Below are positions 21,836 to 29,254 of a stretch of DNA of 40,212 nucleotides, piece after piece. A program made the translations under genes and the position numbers. The notes beneath the pieces were generated by a model. It did no database searches. It was not told the DNA's origin and worked only from the letters and a program-made list of their open reading frames with translations. Source of the DNA: Muribaculaceae bacterium (lineage in GTDB: Bacteria; Bacteroidota; Bacteroidia; Bacteroidales; Muribaculaceae); the NCBI GenBank assembly GCA_017620885.1, contig JAGAUF010000018.1, forward strand, positions 1 to 40,212. The letters are read 5' to 3'. Within the stretch, counting starts at the first letter, position 1; every line of letters begins with the position of its first letter.

Positions 21836-21918
21836 CACCTGATGTATCGGATGTGTCTGATGTACACATAAATCACATAAGTCACACAAAAATTTACATA
21901 ATTTAACTTTGGAGTGCC

Positions 21919-21949
21919 TTGAATTGGCATACACATCGATATAACTTTG
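21919..21949 (+). promoter_or_regulatory. Promoter upstream of a possible small ORF
   Basis: TTG at 21919-21921, a 20-base spacer, TAACTTTG at 21942-21949. It lies in the 412-base gap 21836-22247, which holds this promoter, a 26-codon ORF and the promoter of the methyltransferase operon. A second isolated TAACTTTG is at 21904-21911. Confidence 0.55.
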
Positions 21950-22076
21950 CGCCAAACGGAATATTTCGTTTTTTCATCTGATAATGATTTTAACATTCCT
22001 CATTTTTTGAGAGGCAACGGAATCAATGATTTGGACGAGTCAGAGTTAATATGTTTGTAAATTAAAAAGAATTGAT

Positions 22077-22157
22077 ATGTTTTTTATATGTTTGATTATC
22101 TGGGCAGTCGTCAAGACATTCGGCGATTTGACCAACGGTAAAATGGATATGTATTGA
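22077..22157 (+). CDS. Possible 26-residue single-span membrane peptide
   Basis: ATG at 22077, TGA at 22155-22157. The peptide starts MFFICLIIWAVVKTF, a hydrophobic stretch long enough to enter a membrane, and continues with a polar tail (GDLTNGKMDMY). A full promoter at 21919-21949 lies about 125 bases upstream. It ends before the promoter of the methyltransferase operon. Too short for any family call; it could be a chance frame. Confidence 0.35.
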   Translation: MFFICLIIWAVVKTFGDLTNGKMDMY

Positions 22158-22176
22158 TAATTTATTCTTCAACTCA

Positions 22177-22207
22177 TTGCTTATCTCAAAAATAATTAAT
22201 AAATTTG
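22177..22207 (+). promoter_or_regulatory. Promoter of the methyltransferase-helicase operon
   Basis: TTG at 22177-22179, a 20-base spacer, TAAATTTG at 22200-22207. The start codon of the methyltransferase is at 22248, a leader of about 35 bases. No other promoter was seen inside the four-gene unit. Confidence 0.75.
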
Positions 22208-22247
22208 CGAGTAGTAACAGCAAAATCAGTTATTTAAGTTATCTTGA

Positions 22248-25004
22248 ATGGCAAAAAAAACCAAATCATATTCGCAAGTTCAAGCGCTTGACGCGCTTGA
22301 ACAACTTGGTAAAACAGGAACGTCGGCTCCAGAATTTATCTACGACCTCCTCCGTATCTTTGCAGGATTCGGTGACGGTCAGATTCGTCGCACAAAAGAA
22401 GGTCCCGGAAATCTTGCAAAGGATGGCGAAACCGTCCTTATCAAGAACCTTGTCGCCTACCGAGAGGCCGCAGTCAATACGCTCGACTGTGACTGCTCCG
22501 GTATGTATGACGTCATCAACGCCATGCGCGAGGACAAGAAGATTTCCAAACATTCTCCGCGCCTCTACGTTACGAGCAACGGCGTCCATATTGTGGCTTA
22601 CGACCCTAAGGAAAATGATTGGTACGAAAACAGTATCGAGCTGCTTTGGAAAGACTTTGAGTTTTTTACACCTCTTGCAGGCATCGAGAAAATAGAATAT
22701 ACCACTGAAGCTGAGGCTGATGTTAGGTCTGCCGAACTGATGGCCAAGCTGTTTGACGATATACGCCGCTACAACGATATACGCAATCCGGAAACCGTCC
22801 ATGCGCTCAACGTATTTATGTCGCGCTTGCTGTTCTGCTTCTTTGCCGAAGACACAGGACTGTTTCCCGGCGACAACCTTTTTACAAACACTCTGAAAAC
22901 GCATACAAAGGAGGACGGGTCCGACCTCGCCGAATTTATCGACCGCGCTTTCTTCGCGATGTCGACCAATGATGCAGCAGCACTCGACACGCTTCCTCAG
23001 CTCTATAAAGTTTTTCCCTACGTCAATGGCGGTCTCTTCAAGGAGCATTATCCCATCCCGACACTCTCGCGCCGTGCTCGCACGTTGATAATAAACTGTG
23101 GCGACTACAACTGGCGCGAAATCAACCCCGACATCTTCGGCTCGATGATTCAGGCGGTCGTAACGCCCGAACAGCGTGCCGGACTCGGTATGCACTACAC
23201 CTCGGTGCCGAATATCGAAAAGGTAATCCGCCCGCTTTTCCTCGATGCGCTCGAAGAAGAATTTGATGCAGCTTGCGCCGAGGCTCGCGAAAAGATGGCT
23301 AAGAAAGTCAATCACGACCGCGCCTCACAGCGTTTGCGCAGCCTACTCATCCGCTTGTCTAAGATAAAATTCTTTGACCCGGCTTGCGGCAGCGGCAACT
23401 TCCTTATCATAACCTACAAGCGTTTGCGCGATCTCGAAATCCGCATCTGGCAAGCCCTGCGCGAGATTACCAATGTGGCAATGTTGCCGTTCCCAAGCAT
23501 CACGCTCACGCAATTCTATGGCATCGAACTCGATGAATATGCCTGTGACACGGCCACACTTTCGTTGTGGCTCGCCGAACATCAGATGAACGTCAAGTTT
23601 CAGGAAGAACTCTACGTCCTCCCCGAAACCCTGCCGTTGAAACCATCCGGCCACATCGTCTGCGGCAACGCCTGTCGCCTCGACTGGAACACAGTCTGCC
23701 CCCACACACCCGACGATGAAGTCTATATCATGGGCAATCCGCCGTATCTTGGTAGTAAATTGCAAGATGATGCTCAGAAAGAGGATATGCGAATTGCTAT
23801 GCAAGGTACTGAAGCAGCCAAAACTGTTGATTACATTGCCGCTTGGTTTTGGAAAGGAGCCAAATATATTCGAGGAACTAAAGCAAAATACGCTTTCGTT
23901 ACGACCAATTCAATCAGTCAAGGCGAGCAGGTTGCAATGTTATGGAAACCCATATTTGACCTCGGCGAAGAAATCTTTTTTGCTCGTACATCCTTTAAGT
24001 GGAGCAATAATGCAAAATACAATGCGACAGTAACAGTTGCAATAATTGGAGTTCAAAACATAGATAATTCTGAAAAGAGGCTATTCATAGAATCTTCACA
24101 CACAGAGAAGAAAGTGAAATCTATAAATCCGTATCTTACTGATGGAGATTCAATAATCGTACCAAAGACGACTAAGATTCCCAACGGTATGCCGGAAGTC
24201 CTTTTTGGAAGTATGCCGAGAGACGGAGGTCATCTTAATTTTGAACGCGAAATTGCCGATAAGATCAGAGACCAGTATCCTGAAGCTGCTCATTTTGTTA
24301 AAAGATATATGGGTTCCCAAGAACTTTTACAAGATGTTGAGAGGTACTGCTTGTGGATTGAGGACACTCCGGAGAATGTTAAATTGGCAAAATCTGTGCC
24401 TGAAATAAATGCTCGCTTAAAAGCAGTTTCTTCCGAACGTGAAGCGAGTAATGCTCCAAGCACTCAAGCCTATGCCAACAGACCTCATATGTTTGTACAA
24501 AGGGCATATAGACCAACGAAAGCCATAATTGTACCTTCGGTATCATCAGAGCGACGTGTCTATTTCCCAATAGGATATGTAGATAAGGATACCGTTGTAT
24601 CTAATCTTGCCTTCGCAATCTATGATGCCGAAAAATGGCTGTTCGCTTTGCTGACCTCAAAGATGCACAATCTTTGGGTAAGAGCGGTGGGTGGACGTCT
24701 TAAAACTGATTATCGTTATTCAGCGACCCTCTGCTATAACACTTTCCCATTTCCGAAGCTAAAAACCGCAGAGAAAGAGGAACTGGAACAGCTGGCACAG
24801 CACGTGCTCGATATACGTGAAGAGAATTTCGACCTGACGCTTGGCAAAATGTATAATCCGGAAACCATGCCGGAGGCGTTGCGCGAGGCCCACCATCAGC
24901 TCGACCTCGCCGTGGAGCGCATCTATCGCCCCGAGCCCTTCACCTCCGACGAAGAACGCCTCGAACACCTCTTCAAACTCTACGCCAAAATGACTAAATC
25001 ATAA
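22248..25004 (+). CDS. MmeI-like (type IIG/IIL-related) DNA adenine methyltransferase
   Basis: 918 residues. Motif I FFDPACGSGNF (Asp377 in DPACGSG) binds S-adenosylmethionine, and NPPY at 497-500 is the catalytic motif of N6-adenine methylation. The part before motif I (helical spacer with FCFFAEDTGLFP and GMHYTS) and the part after it (YIAAWFWKGAKYI, then YPEAAHFVKRYMGSQELL) match the MmeI group. The target-recognition region is expected at about 500-835, and a C-terminal helical part follows. The N-terminal 150 residues are where MmeI-type proteins carry a PD-ExK nuclease, but I see no convincing nuclease motif. The three following genes encode two nuclease-type proteins and a helicase, which may supply cleavage. 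Bases about 23750-24765 are much more AT-rich than the rest of the gene. Confidence 0.85.
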   Translation: MAKKTKSYSQVQALDALEQLGKTGTSAPEFIYDLLRIFAGFGDGQIRRTKEGPGNLAKDGETVLIKNLVAYREAAVNTLDCDCSGMYDVINAMREDKKISKHSPRLYVTSNGVHIVAYDPKENDWYENSIELLWKDFEFFTPLAGIEKIEYTTEAEADVRSAELMAKLFDDIRRYNDIRNPETVHALNVFMSRLLFCFFAEDTGLFPGDNLFTNTLKTHTKEDGSDLAEFIDRAFFAMSTNDAAALDTLPQLYKVFPYVNGGLFKEHYPIPTLSRRARTLIINCGDYNWREINPDIFGSMIQAVVTPEQRAGLGMHYTSVPNIEKVIRPLFLDALEEEFDAACAEAREKMAKKVNHDRASQRLRSLLIRLSKIKFFDPACGSGNFLIITYKRLRDLEIRIWQALREITNVAMLPFPSITLTQFYGIELDEYACDTATLSLWLAEHQMNVKFQEELYVLPETLPLKPSGHIVCGNACRLDWNTVCPHTPDDEVYIMGNPPYLGSKLQDDAQKEDMRIAMQGTEAAKTVDYIAAWFWKGAKYIRGTKAKYAFVTTNSISQGEQVAMLWKPIFDLGEEIFFARTSFKWSNNAKYNATVTVAIIGVQNIDNSEKRLFIESSHTEKKVKSINPYLTDGDSIIVPKTTKIPNGMPEVLFGSMPRDGGHLNFEREIADKIRDQYPEAAHFVKRYMGSQELLQDVERYCLWIEDTPENVKLAKSVPEINARLKAVSSEREASNAPSTQAYANRPHMFVQRAYRPTKAIIVPSVSSERRVYFPIGYVDKDTVVSNLAFAIYDAEKWLFALLTSKMHNLWVRAVGGRLKTDYRYSATLCYNTFPFPKLKTAEKEELEQLAQHVLDIREENFDLTLGKMYNPETMPEALREAHHQLDLAVERIYRPEPFTSDEERLEHLFKLYAKMTKS

Positions 25005-25030
25005 CATTCATCGTCAAAACGCTATAGATT

Positions 25031-26071
25031 ATGGAAATAGTTCAAGGCAAGAATAACGAGAGCAATCTCATCGTTGACATACGACAGATGATTGAGGTGG
25101 CTAAATCGCAGGTTGCAGCCACGGTCAATTCCACCATGACGCTGATGTATTGGCATATCGGCGACCGCATCAACCGTGAAGTTCTCGGCGGTGAGAGGGC
25201 GGCTTACGGCAAACAGATTGTGGCCAACCTCGCAACGCAGCTCACCGAAATCTACGGCGGTCGCCAGTTCTCGGAAAAGAACCTCAACCGTATGCGTCTC
25301 TTTGCCGAAAGATTCCCTGACGCATCAATTTGGACATCAGTGATGTCCAAATTGTCGTGGTCTCATTTTCTGCAAGTTATCTCGCTCGACGATGAATTGG
25401 CTCGCAATTTCTATCTGACAATGGCGGCCGACCAACGATGGTCTACACGCACGCTGAAAGCCAAAATCGACGGTATGCTTTATGAACGCACAGCCATAGC
25501 AAAGCAGCCGGAGGAGGTAATACGCCACGACCTTGAGGAGCTAAGCAATGAGCGCAAGATGTCGGCCGACCTCGTATTTCAAGACCCTTACTTTCTTGAC
25601 TTCCTCGGGCTACACGACAATTATTCGGAGAAAGACCTTGAAAGCGCTATCGTGGCCGAACTTCAGCGCTTCATCACCGAGCTTGGCAACGACTTCGCGT
25701 TTCTCGCCCGGCAGAAAAGAATAACGGTCGATGCCGAAGACTATTACATCGACCTGCTGTTCTATCACCGCCGCCTGCGCTGCCTTGTTGCTATTGATTT
25801 GAAACTTGGTAAGTTTCAGGCTGCATACAAAGGACAGATGGAACTGTATCTGCGTTGGCTCAAAAAATATGACATGGCAGAAGGCGAGAACAAGCCTATA
25901 GGCCTGATTCTCTGCGCTGGTAAGAACGAAGAGCATATCGAGCTGATGCATCTTGATGAGAACAACATCCGTGTGGCCGACTATCTCACGAAGCTGCCCG
26001 ACCGCAAATTGCTCGAACAAAAATTGCAGCAGGCAATCGCAAGAGCGCAGAACCGACTAATCGGAAAATAA
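25031..26071 (+). CDS. DUF1016/YhcG-type PD-(D/E)xK nuclease
   Basis: 346 residues. The N-terminal YhcG domain (about 10-160) shows LMYWHIGDRINREVLGGERA and WSHFLQVI. The C-terminal nuclease domain (about 190-340) has YYIDLLFYHRRLRCLVAIDLKLG: Asp241, then Asp256-Leu-Lys258, so the usual ExK of the family is DxK here. GQMELYLRWL and PIGLILCAGKN follow as in the family. Such proteins are widespread around restriction-modification genes; their exact target is unsettled. It starts 26 bases after the methyltransferase and ends one base before the helicase, clearly within the same operon. Confidence 0.85.
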   Translation: MEIVQGKNNESNLIVDIRQMIEVAKSQVAATVNSTMTLMYWHIGDRINREVLGGERAAYGKQIVANLATQLTEIYGGRQFSEKNLNRMRLFAERFPDASIWTSVMSKLSWSHFLQVISLDDELARNFYLTMAADQRWSTRTLKAKIDGMLYERTAIAKQPEEVIRHDLEELSNERKMSADLVFQDPYFLDFLGLHDNYSEKDLESAIVAELQRFITELGNDFAFLARQKRITVDAEDYYIDLLFYHRRLRCLVAIDLKLGKFQAAYKGQMELYLRWLKKYDMAEGENKPIGLILCAGKNEEHIELMHLDENNIRVADYLTKLPDRKLLEQKLQQAIARAQNRLIGK

Positions 26072-26072
26072 T

Positions 26073-28046
26073 ATGGAAAATCTTGTAAATATAGAATACG
26101 CCCAAACCGGCAAAGCAACGAATGTCGACGACCTCGGTATGCGCGAAATGCAAGCTATGGTATATGAGCAGCGTAACCGCCAGTATCTTCTTGTCAAAGC
26201 TCCGCCCGCTTCGGGCAAAAGCCGCGCCATGATGTTTGTCGCTCTCGACAAACTCGCCAATCAAGGCGTTAAAAAAGTTATAGTGGCTGTGCCACAACAG
26301 AACATCGGTCGTAGCTTCAAGGACACTCCCTTGAAGAAGTTCGGCTTTTTTGAGGACTGGACGATTGCCCCTTACTGGAATCTTTGCTTGAACGCCGGAA
26401 GCGAGAACTCCAAGAAGTCGATTGTCCGCGAGTTTCTTGACCATCCCTCTGCCACTAAACTCGTCTGCACCCATGCCACGCTTCTTAACGCGCTCAACGG
26501 CATTGATGCTCGGAAGCTCGATAATGTTTTCTTCGGCATCGACGAGTTCCATCATGGCTCTGCAGATGAGAACAATCGCCTCGGCACTCTTATTCGCCGA
26601 TTGCTTAACCAAACATCGGCGCATATCCTTGCCATGACCGGTTCTTATTTCCGTGGCGATGCCATCCCTGTGATGCGTCCGGAGGATGAAGTGAAATTTC
26701 AGCCGACCATCAACTACAATTACTATCAGCAGCTAAATGGCTATCGCTGGCTGAAAAGCCTCGGCATTGGCTACCACTTCTTTCAGGGCAACTATCTGAC
26801 AGCTATTCCGGAAGTTCTCGATACGCATAAGAAAACTCTTATTCATATCCCGCGCCCCAACAGTAAGACAGGCGCGTTTATGAACAAATACGACCAAGTA
26901 GCCGAAATACTAAAATATATCGGCGAAGTGGTTGACCACGATTTCGATAATTATCTCTACAAGGTTAAAACGCCTGACGGAAGAATCCTTACCATTGGCG
27001 ACCTTGTGGAAGATAAAGCGGAGTGCCGAGGCGCGCTTCAATCATATCTGCAACGTATGAACAGCCGTGACTCGCTTGATATATTGATAGCTCTCGGCAC
27101 AGCCAAAGAAGGTTTCGACTGGGAATGGTGCGAACATTGCATCACCGTCGGCATCCGTTCGTCGCTCACTGAGGTTGTGCAGATTATCGGCCGATGCACA
27201 CGCGACTGCGAGGGAAAGACCCATGCGCAGTTCACCAACCTCATACCCTGTCCTGACGCGGTGCAGGACGATGTGGCAATGGCAGTCAACGACTTCCTGA
27301 AGGCTATATCGGCATCGCTACTCATGGAGCAGGTTATGGCGCCACGCTGGAACTTCAAAACAAAAATTGACGAACCGGAACCCGGTGACCCAAAGAAACT
27401 AAAGAAACCCAAACGTGTTATCGAGGTCAAGGGGCTCCCTGAGCTCAACGATAAGACAAAGGCTATCGTTGAGAACGACCTCGACACTCTCGTTGCCACC
27501 ACGCTCTCTGATACAAATATCCAAAAGGCAATTATAGGCGAGGACATGGCTGAAATGATTACGGAGGTATATATACCTAAAATCATTCGCGACACATACC
27601 CTGACCTCAACGAGGAGGAAGTTGAAGCCGTCAGAGCACACACTGTCCTTACAATTGCAACACAGGGGAAACAAATAATTGGACCGGACGACTCCGGCAA
27701 TAAGTTTATTAAGATGGCCAACAAGTTTATAAATCTTGATGACCTTGACATAAACTTGATTTCCGAGATAAATCCTTTCCAACGAGCCTACGAGGTAATC
27801 TCTAAGTCGCTTACGCCTGAGACTCTGCGCACCATCCAATATGTAATCGAGGACAAGCGCACTGAATCAATCACAGATGAGGAGGCTATTCTGCTTTTCA
27901 AGAAGTATTTCCCGAAATGGAAAGAAGAAAACCCGGGCAAGACTGAGCCTCTGATTACCGACGGCGATCCTACGGCACGTCGCATAGCTATGGCCATTGA
28001 GCGTCTCCGCCAAATCAAACGTAGAAAATTATCTGAACAGCAATGA
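26073..28046 (+). CDS. SF2 DEAD/DEAH-type helicase of the defence operon
   Basis: 657 residues. Walker A APPASGKS (43-50), Walker B GIDEFHHG (155-162), motif III AMTGS (187-191), motif V region GTAKEGFDWEWCEH and motif VI QIIGRCTRD (370-378) are all present, so it should hydrolyse ATP and translocate on nucleic acid. The region after about residue 430 (Lys- and Glu-rich linker, then a helical C-terminus ending IERLRQIKRRK) has no domain I recognise. The resemblance is to restriction-type (type I/III-like) helicases. It overlaps the next gene by four bases (ATGA) and follows the DUF1016 gene by a single base, so the proteins are probably made in fixed ratio and may form a complex. Confidence 0.85.
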   Translation: MENLVNIEYAQTGKATNVDDLGMREMQAMVYEQRNRQYLLVKAPPASGKSRAMMFVALDKLANQGVKKVIVAVPQQNIGRSFKDTPLKKFGFFEDWTIAPYWNLCLNAGSENSKKSIVREFLDHPSATKLVCTHATLLNALNGIDARKLDNVFFGIDEFHHGSADENNRLGTLIRRLLNQTSAHILAMTGSYFRGDAIPVMRPEDEVKFQPTINYNYYQQLNGYRWLKSLGIGYHFFQGNYLTAIPEVLDTHKKTLIHIPRPNSKTGAFMNKYDQVAEILKYIGEVVDHDFDNYLYKVKTPDGRILTIGDLVEDKAECRGALQSYLQRMNSRDSLDILIALGTAKEGFDWEWCEHCITVGIRSSLTEVVQIIGRCTRDCEGKTHAQFTNLIPCPDAVQDDVAMAVNDFLKAISASLLMEQVMAPRWNFKTKIDEPEPGDPKKLKKPKRVIEVKGLPELNDKTKAIVENDLDTLVATTLSDTNIQKAIIGEDMAEMITEVYIPKIIRDTYPDLNEEEVEAVRAHTVLTIATQGKQIIGPDDSGNKFIKMANKFINLDDLDINLISEINPFQRAYEVISKSLTPETLRTIQYVIEDKRTESITDEEAILLFKKYFPKWKEENPGKTEPLITDGDPTARRIAMAIERLRQIKRRKLSEQQ

Positions 28047-29236
28047 TAAACTGGGGAAAAGAACTCGAAGAAATACTCAAAGACCCGTTTTTCGATAACG
28101 TAAAACCTCTCAAGAAGAAACCTACATCGAGCGACCGCCTTGTAGCCGGCTTTCAGGAAATCTGTGATTATGCAGAGGCGCATGGTTGCCCTCCGACCGA
28201 GGAGACAGATCGGAAACTGTATCGCAGACTGAAAGGCATACTGGAAAATGAGTCAAGGTTGGAGCGGTGCCGTCCGTTTGATACCTGTGGACTATTGCCG
28301 ATACCTGAAAATGAAATAGCCTCTGAACCTGAGGCAGATTATAAGCCGAAAGAACTTACAGAAGCAGAACAGTTGGAGGAGATAATGAACGATCCGCTGT
28401 TTGATGACATTGAAAGCGGAAGCGACCTCGGTCTGTTTGATATTCCTGATTATATGCGTGAACGGCTTAATGCCCGGAAAGAAGCCGAGTATGTTGGCAA
28501 ACGTAGGGAATGTGAGGACTTCGAGAAATACGCCAATGGATTCAAGGAAGTACAGCAAGGCTTGAAGTCCGGGAAATTCCGACTTGTGAAATTCAGTGTC
28601 AAGAATCTCAAAGTCGGAAGTTACTTCGTAGAGGACGGTATGATTGGCTATCTTGCCGCATTTGATGATGAAGGCGTTAACCGTCATGGCGACCGCGATG
28701 GCCGAACCCGCGTTATCTATGAAAATGGCGCTGAGGCTGACATAAAATTTAAAACTATAACCAAGAATCTTAGCGTAACCGGCTATTCGGTTATAGACAC
28801 CTCAGAAATGACGACCGAAGAATTAGAGCAGTGTTTCACAATCAACGATACTGACGTTGAAAGCGGCACAATCTATGTGTTGCGCACGAAATCAACACGT
28901 CCTGAGATTGCCGCAATAAAAAACCTCTACAAAATCGGTTTTACTGCCACTTCGGTGGAAAGCCGTATAGCCAATGCGCGGAATGAGCCTACATATTTGT
29001 GTGCAGATGTCGAAGTTGTGGCAACTTGGAAAGTCTACAATGTAAAATCTTCCACATTTGAGGCACTGATACACAAGTTATTCTCATCCGTTCAGTTGCA
29101 GGTAACAGTTGATGGTCACACTCCAAAGGAATGGTTCATCGTGCCGTTCAACATCATAGAGGAGGGTGTGCTTGCTATAATAAATGGTATTCCGGTTGAA
29201 TACGATCGGGATCTTCAGCAGATTATTCGGCTATAA
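28043..29236 (+). CDS. T5orf172-type GIY-YIG protein
   Basis: 397 residues. The C-terminal domain (about 275-375) is of the T5orf172/GIY-YIG superfamily: GTIYVLRTKS (TIY in place of GIY), LYKIGFTATSVESRI (YKIG in place of YIG plus the catalytic-position Arg) and the helix TFEALIHKLF. The N-terminus is unusual: LEEILKDPFFDNV (8-20) and LEEIMNDPLFDDI (111-123) are near-copies of one 13-residue motif, perhaps a docking peptide. Residues 170-265 form a further, unrecognised domain. The gene overlaps the helicase by four bases and is the last of the operon. It could cut DNA or act as a substrate-binding module. Confidence 0.8.
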   Translation: MINWGKELEEILKDPFFDNVKPLKKKPTSSDRLVAGFQEICDYAEAHGCPPTEETDRKLYRRLKGILENESRLERCRPFDTCGLLPIPENEIASEPEADYKPKELTEAEQLEEIMNDPLFDDIESGSDLGLFDIPDYMRERLNARKEAEYVGKRRECEDFEKYANGFKEVQQGLKSGKFRLVKFSVKNLKVGSYFVEDGMIGYLAAFDDEGVNRHGDRDGRTRVIYENGAEADIKFKTITKNLSVTGYSVIDTSEMTTEELEQCFTINDTDVESGTIYVLRTKSTRPEIAAIKNLYKIGFTATSVESRIANARNEPTYLCADVEVVATWKVYNVKSSTFEALIHKLFSSVQLQVTVDGHTPKEWFIVPFNIIEEGVLAIINGIPVEYDRDLQQIIRL

Positions 29237-29254
29237 TCTTGGCACTTGGGGTGA

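Follow-up and report, generated by a model that had tools for sequence, protein, structure and literature searches.

A DnmA-YeeB-YeeC-type operon with a variable gene slot in a Muribaculaceae bacterium: a candidate split restriction-modification chassis

The described cluster closest to the locus reported here is DnmA-YeeB-YeeC of Bacillus subtilis, which is conserved (Nye 2020, PMC7261158; Fernandez 2023, PMC9973331) and for which a type I-like nature was once proposed (PMC9973331, PMC7261158). Its methyltransferase DnmA methylates GACGAG, and an 'uncharacterized protein' family found around the cluster was considered a possible further member in some bacteria (Fernandez 2023, PMC9973331). 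We analysed a stretch of 40,212 nucleotides from a Muribaculaceae bacterium (contig JAGAUF010000018.1, hereafter the window), in which four genes follow one another on the forward strand. They encode a DnmA-like, MmeI-like N6-adenine DNA methyltransferase without a nuclease motif (22248..25004, 918 aa), a DUF1016/YhcG protein of the PD-(D/E)XK type (25031..26071, 346 aa), a YeeB-like SF2 helicase (26073..28046, 657 aa) and a YeeC-like T5orf172/GIY-YIG protein that is a putative nuclease (28043..29236, 397 aa). The first, third and fourth correspond to DnmA, YeeB and YeeC in kind and in order, so the statement of a first-pass annotation that the operon matches no described layout is not supported. 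With a probability of roughly 60%, the operon is a split restriction-modification (RM) chassis of the DnmA-YeeB-YeeC type, with an exchangeable target recognition domain (TRD) and a slot for accessory defence genes. The core trio is known; our searches of openly licensed PMC papers showed no account of the slot in such a trio.

The likeness to the B. subtilis trio is drawn from its published description. In the window an MmeI-family methyltransferase without nuclease motif has an SF2 helicase downstream in the same operon, and a T5orf172/GIY-YIG gene comes directly after the helicase. The helicase and the GIY-YIG gene do not occupy positions +1 and +2, an order kept in the nine loci without cargo, because the DUF1016 gene intervenes. 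Thus, the window holds a variant of the cluster rather than a plain member, and its TRD is probably different, too. The B. subtilis control genome matches MmeI_TRD, and a trio on a Bacillaceae plasmid (L120) is 40, 50 and 33% identical to that of the window in methyltransferase, helicase and GIY-YIG protein, respectively.

The trio is found well beyond the window. A helicase scan gave 53 loci, which together with the window and L108-L111 from family genomes make 58 genome loci; in a sample of the phylum 9 of 395 genomes matched, one being the window's own, and the eight loci read added seven new ones (L168 is L032 again). Measurable junctions numbered 52 + 6 = 58 between methyltransferase and helicase and 54 + 7 = 61 between helicase and GIY-YIG gene. 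Too little sequence was present for the former in L021, L029, L036, L044 and L051, L032 has no methyltransferase match in 10 kb and the methyltransferase of L175 is broken. The helicase and GIY-YIG genes are at most 104 nt apart in 60 of the 61 loci (the GIY start is extrapolated in L033, L040 and L110, where the alignment begins at residue 100-109), and the methyltransferase and helicase genes are separated by more than 600 nt in 49 of 58 (43/52 + 6/6). Within the family, the helicase occurs in 21 of 297 genomes and the GIY-YIG protein in 24, which include all 21; a close methyltransferase accompanies 20 of the 21, and the one genome left has a contig that breaks off within the helicase gene. 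Helicase relatives are also present in 263 of 72,556 plasmid records. In four of six plasmid trios read, methyltransferase and helicase genes abut: L118, L120 and L121 have no insert, nor does L119, whose methyltransferase is annotated in two pieces. The Lactobacillus plasmid L122 has one slot gene, and L123 a transposase in the slot. A phage-borne origin was rejected, as only 2 of 50,697 phage records matched, over 24% of the helicase.

The slot of the window lies between the methyltransferase and the helicase genes (25005..26072). Slot open reading frames (ORFs) from 43 genome loci and L122, 44 loci in all, fell into 33 clusters (blastp, E 1e-4); they were chosen by length, so that a handful of short ones could be spurious. 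Those of six loci from the phylum sample stand outside this clustering, and none is DUF1016. Searches with representatives against Pfam and PADLOC assigned DUF2971 (F1), AlbA_2 with HATPase_c_4 (F2), AbiJ_NTD4 (F6), DUF3791 (F7), RhuM (F8), DUF1016 (F10), DUF3990 (F12), YoeB (F14), zeta-toxin (F17), Gp49 (F19), HTH_3 (F20), AriAB (F21), Bro-N (F32) and PDC-S32 (F33), and below the Pfam cut-off RelE (F15). Schlafen/AlbA and toxin-antitoxin genes are among the occupants, PADLOC PDC families recur, and the AbiJ-type PDC-S32 cargo appears both in Bacteroidales and in the Lactobacillus plasmid. Many other families had no match in Pfam or PADLOC with the representatives used; those tested of F3, F4, F9, F11 and F31 gave nothing above the curated Pfam cut-off and nothing in NCBIfam, and those of F3 and F4 nothing in PADLOC either. 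F3 (about 248 aa) recurs in L003, L004, L007, L017, L018 and L026, and F4 (about 335 aa) in L006, L025, L027, L052, L053 and L108. Several loci carry two to four slot genes, L108 four. In L030 (7060-8973) a fused, PARIS-like AriAB gene (382 bits) stands beside RhuM, which places an anti-restriction sensor within a putative restriction operon.

The contents of the slot differ even between close relatives. Among 73 pairs of loci with helicases at least 90% identical, 66 have cargo in both members, and only 12 of these share a cargo family while 54 share none; counting three pairs with one empty slot, 57 of 73 lack a common label. On the helicase tree (54 tips), F2 (7 tips) requires a minimum of 7 changes, F1 (7 tips) 6 and F5 (5 tips) 5. 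These counts show, at the level of sequence, that slot content turns over faster than the core.

The TRD (24144..24761, Pfam MmeI_TRD) is a second exchangeable module, hypervariable among loci that are otherwise alike. At helicase identity of at least 90% (54 pairs with complete methyltransferases) its mean identity is 50%, while the N-terminal, spacer and C-terminal parts and the first methyltransferase part reach 86-88%; the second methyltransferase part, with 61%, is low as well. Such diversity is as expected for a domain that would switch specificity. L006, L020, L007 and L003 (the last from Muribaculaceae Isolate-036, at 82%) have TRDs 82-89% identical to that of the window, and none carries its cargo; among the 15 pairs whose TRDs agree at 80% or more, 3 have a cargo family in common. 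Since loci with similar TRDs seldom share cargo, TRD and cargo change largely independently.

In the division of labour suggested for the trio, the methyltransferase has no nuclease motif. The protein has all five Pfam MmeI domains (MmeI_N, hel, Mtase, TRD and C), aligns with MmeI (PDB 5hr4) over profile positions 10-903 of 904, and reaches 973 bits with a type IIG model of PADLOC. The first-pass annotation had seen no clear nuclease in it, and both the MmeI alignment and a motif test agree, as the PD-ExK residues of MmeI are absent. The motif, D-x(7-12)-[ILVM]-E-x-K scored in the first 200 or 250 residues, was found in 0 of 48 complete trio methyltransferases (five from plasmids) and in 19 of 19 MmeI relatives without a helicase or GIY match in the region read, with either limit. 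These controls belong to the same family; of the 26 genomes that have a relative of this kind only, 18 contributed one each, and the nineteenth is a further copy in a trio genome. Within the first 130 residues the counts were 0/48 and 16/19, the latter being affected by some control ORFs extended at their start. A looser pattern matches 39 of 48 trio sequences, mostly elsewhere in the protein, which we read as chance. A nuclease fused to the methyltransferase, as in type IIL MmeI, was thus rejected, and any cutting would have to come from another protein. The fused motif and the helicase and GIY-YIG genes are mutually exclusive among the sequences read, which points to the helicase and GIY-YIG genes as the source of the cutting that was lost.

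The GIY-YIG protein, constant and with conserved motif residues, is the obvious candidate for the cutter. Pfam assigns T5orf172 and MUG113 to it and DEAD and ResIII to the helicase, in which Helicase_C stays below the cut-off (21.5 versus 23.5 bits). Alignments spanning Bacteroidales, Psychrobacter/Morganella, Bacillota and Rhodococcus show no variation at the residues that presumably form the helicase and GIY-YIG motifs. No solved structure was matched by the single helicase or GIY sequence, by the GIY profile or by DUF1016, and the helicase profile gave two weak matches (E 0.0015). We take the trio to be a system that marks DNA and probably cuts it.

Several points weigh against the chassis with its accessory slot. 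Nine of 58 loci have no cargo, and cargo is therefore not needed. By our own choice of ORFs, the insert of L031, L034, L039-L041 and L043 was read on the opposite strand, and those genes would thus not be cotranscribed with the trio. That all cargo together needs at least 35 changes on the helicase tree is a weak argument by itself, since 31 different slot contents already force at least 30; we set this total aside for the counts by pair and by family. PADLOC families (E <=1e-5) were matched by 11 of 20 cargo representatives and 5 of 20 nearest flanking genes, but the former were chosen per family, the latter drawn at random and both samples are small; the difference goes in the right direction, but we would not call it established. 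In L170 the helicase-GIY gap is about 385 nt and holds a 72-aa ORF. Genome G034 has a close methyltransferase without the helicase, although its contig ends in the methyltransferase gene. L032 (6300-10000) has helicase and GIY-YIG genes with no methyltransferase match within 10 kb upstream; genes that by eye are AlbA-like and HerA-like ATPase genes lie directly upstream of them, and this may be a different system with the same motor and nuclease. Finally, the B. subtilis trio gave neither protection from phages nor restriction of plasmids, and phages do not avoid the DnmA site (PMC9973331, PMC7261158).

These B. subtilis results are what favours the strongest competing explanation, a decayed relic in which the methyltransferase is now only a gene regulator, as proposed for DnmA (PMC9973331, PMC7261158). 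For the operon of the window we consider this unlikely. All four ORFs are intact, and the motif residues of helicase and GIY-YIG protein have stayed invariant over wide alignments. Moreover, the patchy presence in the family, the lack of shared flanks and the fast turnover of the TRD resemble a defence gene more. The genes flanking the operon in the window are common to 0 of 63 other trio loci (57 genome and 6 plasmid loci, in the stretches read), and any flanking family recurs in at most three trio loci (293 flanking ORFs), indicating a unit placed at many different sites. Results published for the trio are mixed, as in V. crassostreae a deletion raised phage sensitivity, cited second-hand in PMC9973331.

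A second alternative concerns the DUF1016 gene, whose product might cooperate with the trio itself, the helicase loading it as an additional or alternative nuclease, instead of being an independent accessory. The protein matches DUF1016_N and YhcG_C in Pfam and PDC-S02 in PADLOC; it is a predicted PD-(D/E)XK nuclease (YhcG_C), and its gene follows the modification gene as in type I RM operons. Yet a GIY-YIG protein is already present, and many slot occupants do not look nuclease-like by family, which leaves a nuclease function common to the slot without support. We regard this direct role as rather improbable, more so than the relic.

Less plausible still, and in our view very improbable, is a fixed system of four proteins with DUF1016 as an obligate subunit. 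The first-pass annotation had proposed the four genes as one unit, to be abandoned if they were rarely found together. The tight spacing in the window (26, 1 and -4 nt) and the presence of the DUF1016 family in the same slot of L016 speak for it. However, these two are the only cases among the 58 measurable genome loci, and they stand at separate places on the helicase tree (2 tips, at least 2 changes, two gains). The trio also occurs without any insert. We therefore rejected a conserved quartet, as slot contents vary and the trio persists: the four genes are indeed rarely together and the three are not. The idea of a split, restriction-like system holds insofar as modification, motor and nuclease are in separate proteins, but not with four proteins as one system.

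The contexts of DUF1016 relatives point the same way. With a limit of E 1e-40, 112 of 247 family genomes have a relative, and in ten contexts of close relatives two were type I RM operons (L155: HsdM, DUF1016, HsdS, HsdR; L162: HsdR, HsdM, DUF1016, HsdS), one adjoined an HsdM-like gene (L160) and seven had no RM gene, with queries taken from one Serratia operon, so that distant RM genes may escape. On plasmids, L166 from Serratia has the order HsdM-DUF1016-HsdS-HsdR, and three other relatives are alone. Since its relatives stand alone or in type I RM operons, the DUF1016 gene is an itinerant accessory.

Membership in DISARM or BREX can be dismissed: DrmMI models match the C-terminal half of the methyltransferase with 130 bits, against 973 bits for the type IIG model, the island holds just the four genes, and among the matches listed for the four proteins (the best 25 families for the first two) there were no DrmA, DrmB or DrmC and no PglZ or BrxC, only DrmMI and weak DrmD and PglX matches, all on the methyltransferase.

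The whole island, from the lptG stop to the folK stop, spans 21836..29254 (7.4 kb). ORF positions and Pfam bear out the four genes, their annotations and their spacing, as well as a setting between housekeeping genes, with lptG on one side and the convergent folK on the other, downstream of the operon. The start once given at 22177 is not a gene start, the first ORF beginning at 22248; it is the start of an exact match (22177..22207, + strand) to TTG-N20-TAnnTTTG, which we take to be the Bacteroidetes promoter consensus. The pattern occurs 12 times in the window, where 0.54 occurrences are expected. The single promoter proposed earlier is a candidate, and not a certain one, because another exact match sits upstream at 21919-21949. 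lptG was matched in 55 of 61 congeneric genomes, and of 30 loci listed, the 29 other than the window's own were read: in 16 the junction is closed, folK coming right after lptG in opposite orientation, and in the other 13 lptG is adjoined by other genes of the window or by nothing recognised. The best helicase matches are Muribaculaceae records. We rejected a compositional island, as G+C per kb across the four genes (0.44-0.51) resembles the rest of the window.

More than one trio can occur in a genome. Genome G182 carries L003 (contig 13), with a helicase 86% identical to that of the window, and L111 (contig 34), which is distant (47%) and has no cargo. L053 and L054 are on contigs of one metagenome-assembled genome that both end in the helicase gene at residue 227; they differ in methyltransferase and cargo, and are probably two trios broken by assembly. 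An ORF of at least 80 aa lies within 60 nt after the GIY-YIG gene in 18 of 50 loci, some surely by chance or as housekeeping genes. Loci with such a gene include L004, L015, L024, L026, L030 and L033: that of L026 matches PDC-S31, that of L004 does so weakly, and those of L015, L030 and L033 are by eye AlbA-like, SIR2-like and DUF262-like. A second, less used accessory position after the GIY-YIG gene is possible.

The sequences give the anatomy of the operon; loading, translocation, cutting and guarding we infer by analogy with type I RM, MmeI, PrrC and PARIS. The methyltransferase would label self DNA on a single strand of an asymmetric site. At an unmarked site it would serve as the recognition subunit and load the helicase, which would translocate as HsdR does and recruit the GIY-YIG nuclease for cleavage. 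A second line of defence, for phages that escape or inhibit the first, would come from the slot gene, here a DUF1016 nuclease and elsewhere AriAB, AbiJ-type proteins, toxin-antitoxin pairs and others. We suggest only tentatively that slot products are exchangeable guards kept silent by an active trio and set free once a phage blocks it, as with PrrC and EcoprrI. If so, the slot would be a natural catalogue of anti-anti-restriction effectors, including the unnamed F3, F4, F5, F9 and F11. The slot also draws attention to protein families of unassigned function that have entered a defence operon time and again, and offers an inexpensive route to others, in a trio that is widespread on plasmids and yet was called a relic on B. 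subtilis data. A 2024 preprint by Payne et al. (10.1101/2024.01.29.577857, cited in PMC11411939) reportedly deals with embedded defence genes in multi-gene defence clusters.

Compared with the type IIL enzyme MmeI, the methyltransferase is alike in its near-full-length alignment, and the locus differs in lacking PD-ExK and in encoding a helicase and a GIY-YIG protein alongside. HsdM, HsdS and HsdR of type I RM were not among the matches listed for the four proteins (the best 25 PADLOC families where there were many). That RM and BREX operons harbour accessory defences is a known theme (PMC11411939, PMC3710099, PMC12707154, PMC12839542). PrrC is embedded in the type I RM system ecoprrI (PMC12707154, PMC3710099) and tgvAB in that of V. 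cholerae (PMC11411939), and the operon of the window resembles them in having a defence gene inside, as DUF1016 itself is in L155, L162 and L166; the core there is HsdM/S/R, here an MmeI-like methyltransferase, a helicase and a GIY-YIG protein. BREX loci carry exchangeable auxiliary effectors that include PARIS-like modules, in an article whose main text does not use the terms GIY-YIG, T5orf172 or MmeI (PMC12839542). With a different core, the trio and its slot would share with BREX a modification-based locus that holds exchangeable back-ups, PARIS among them.

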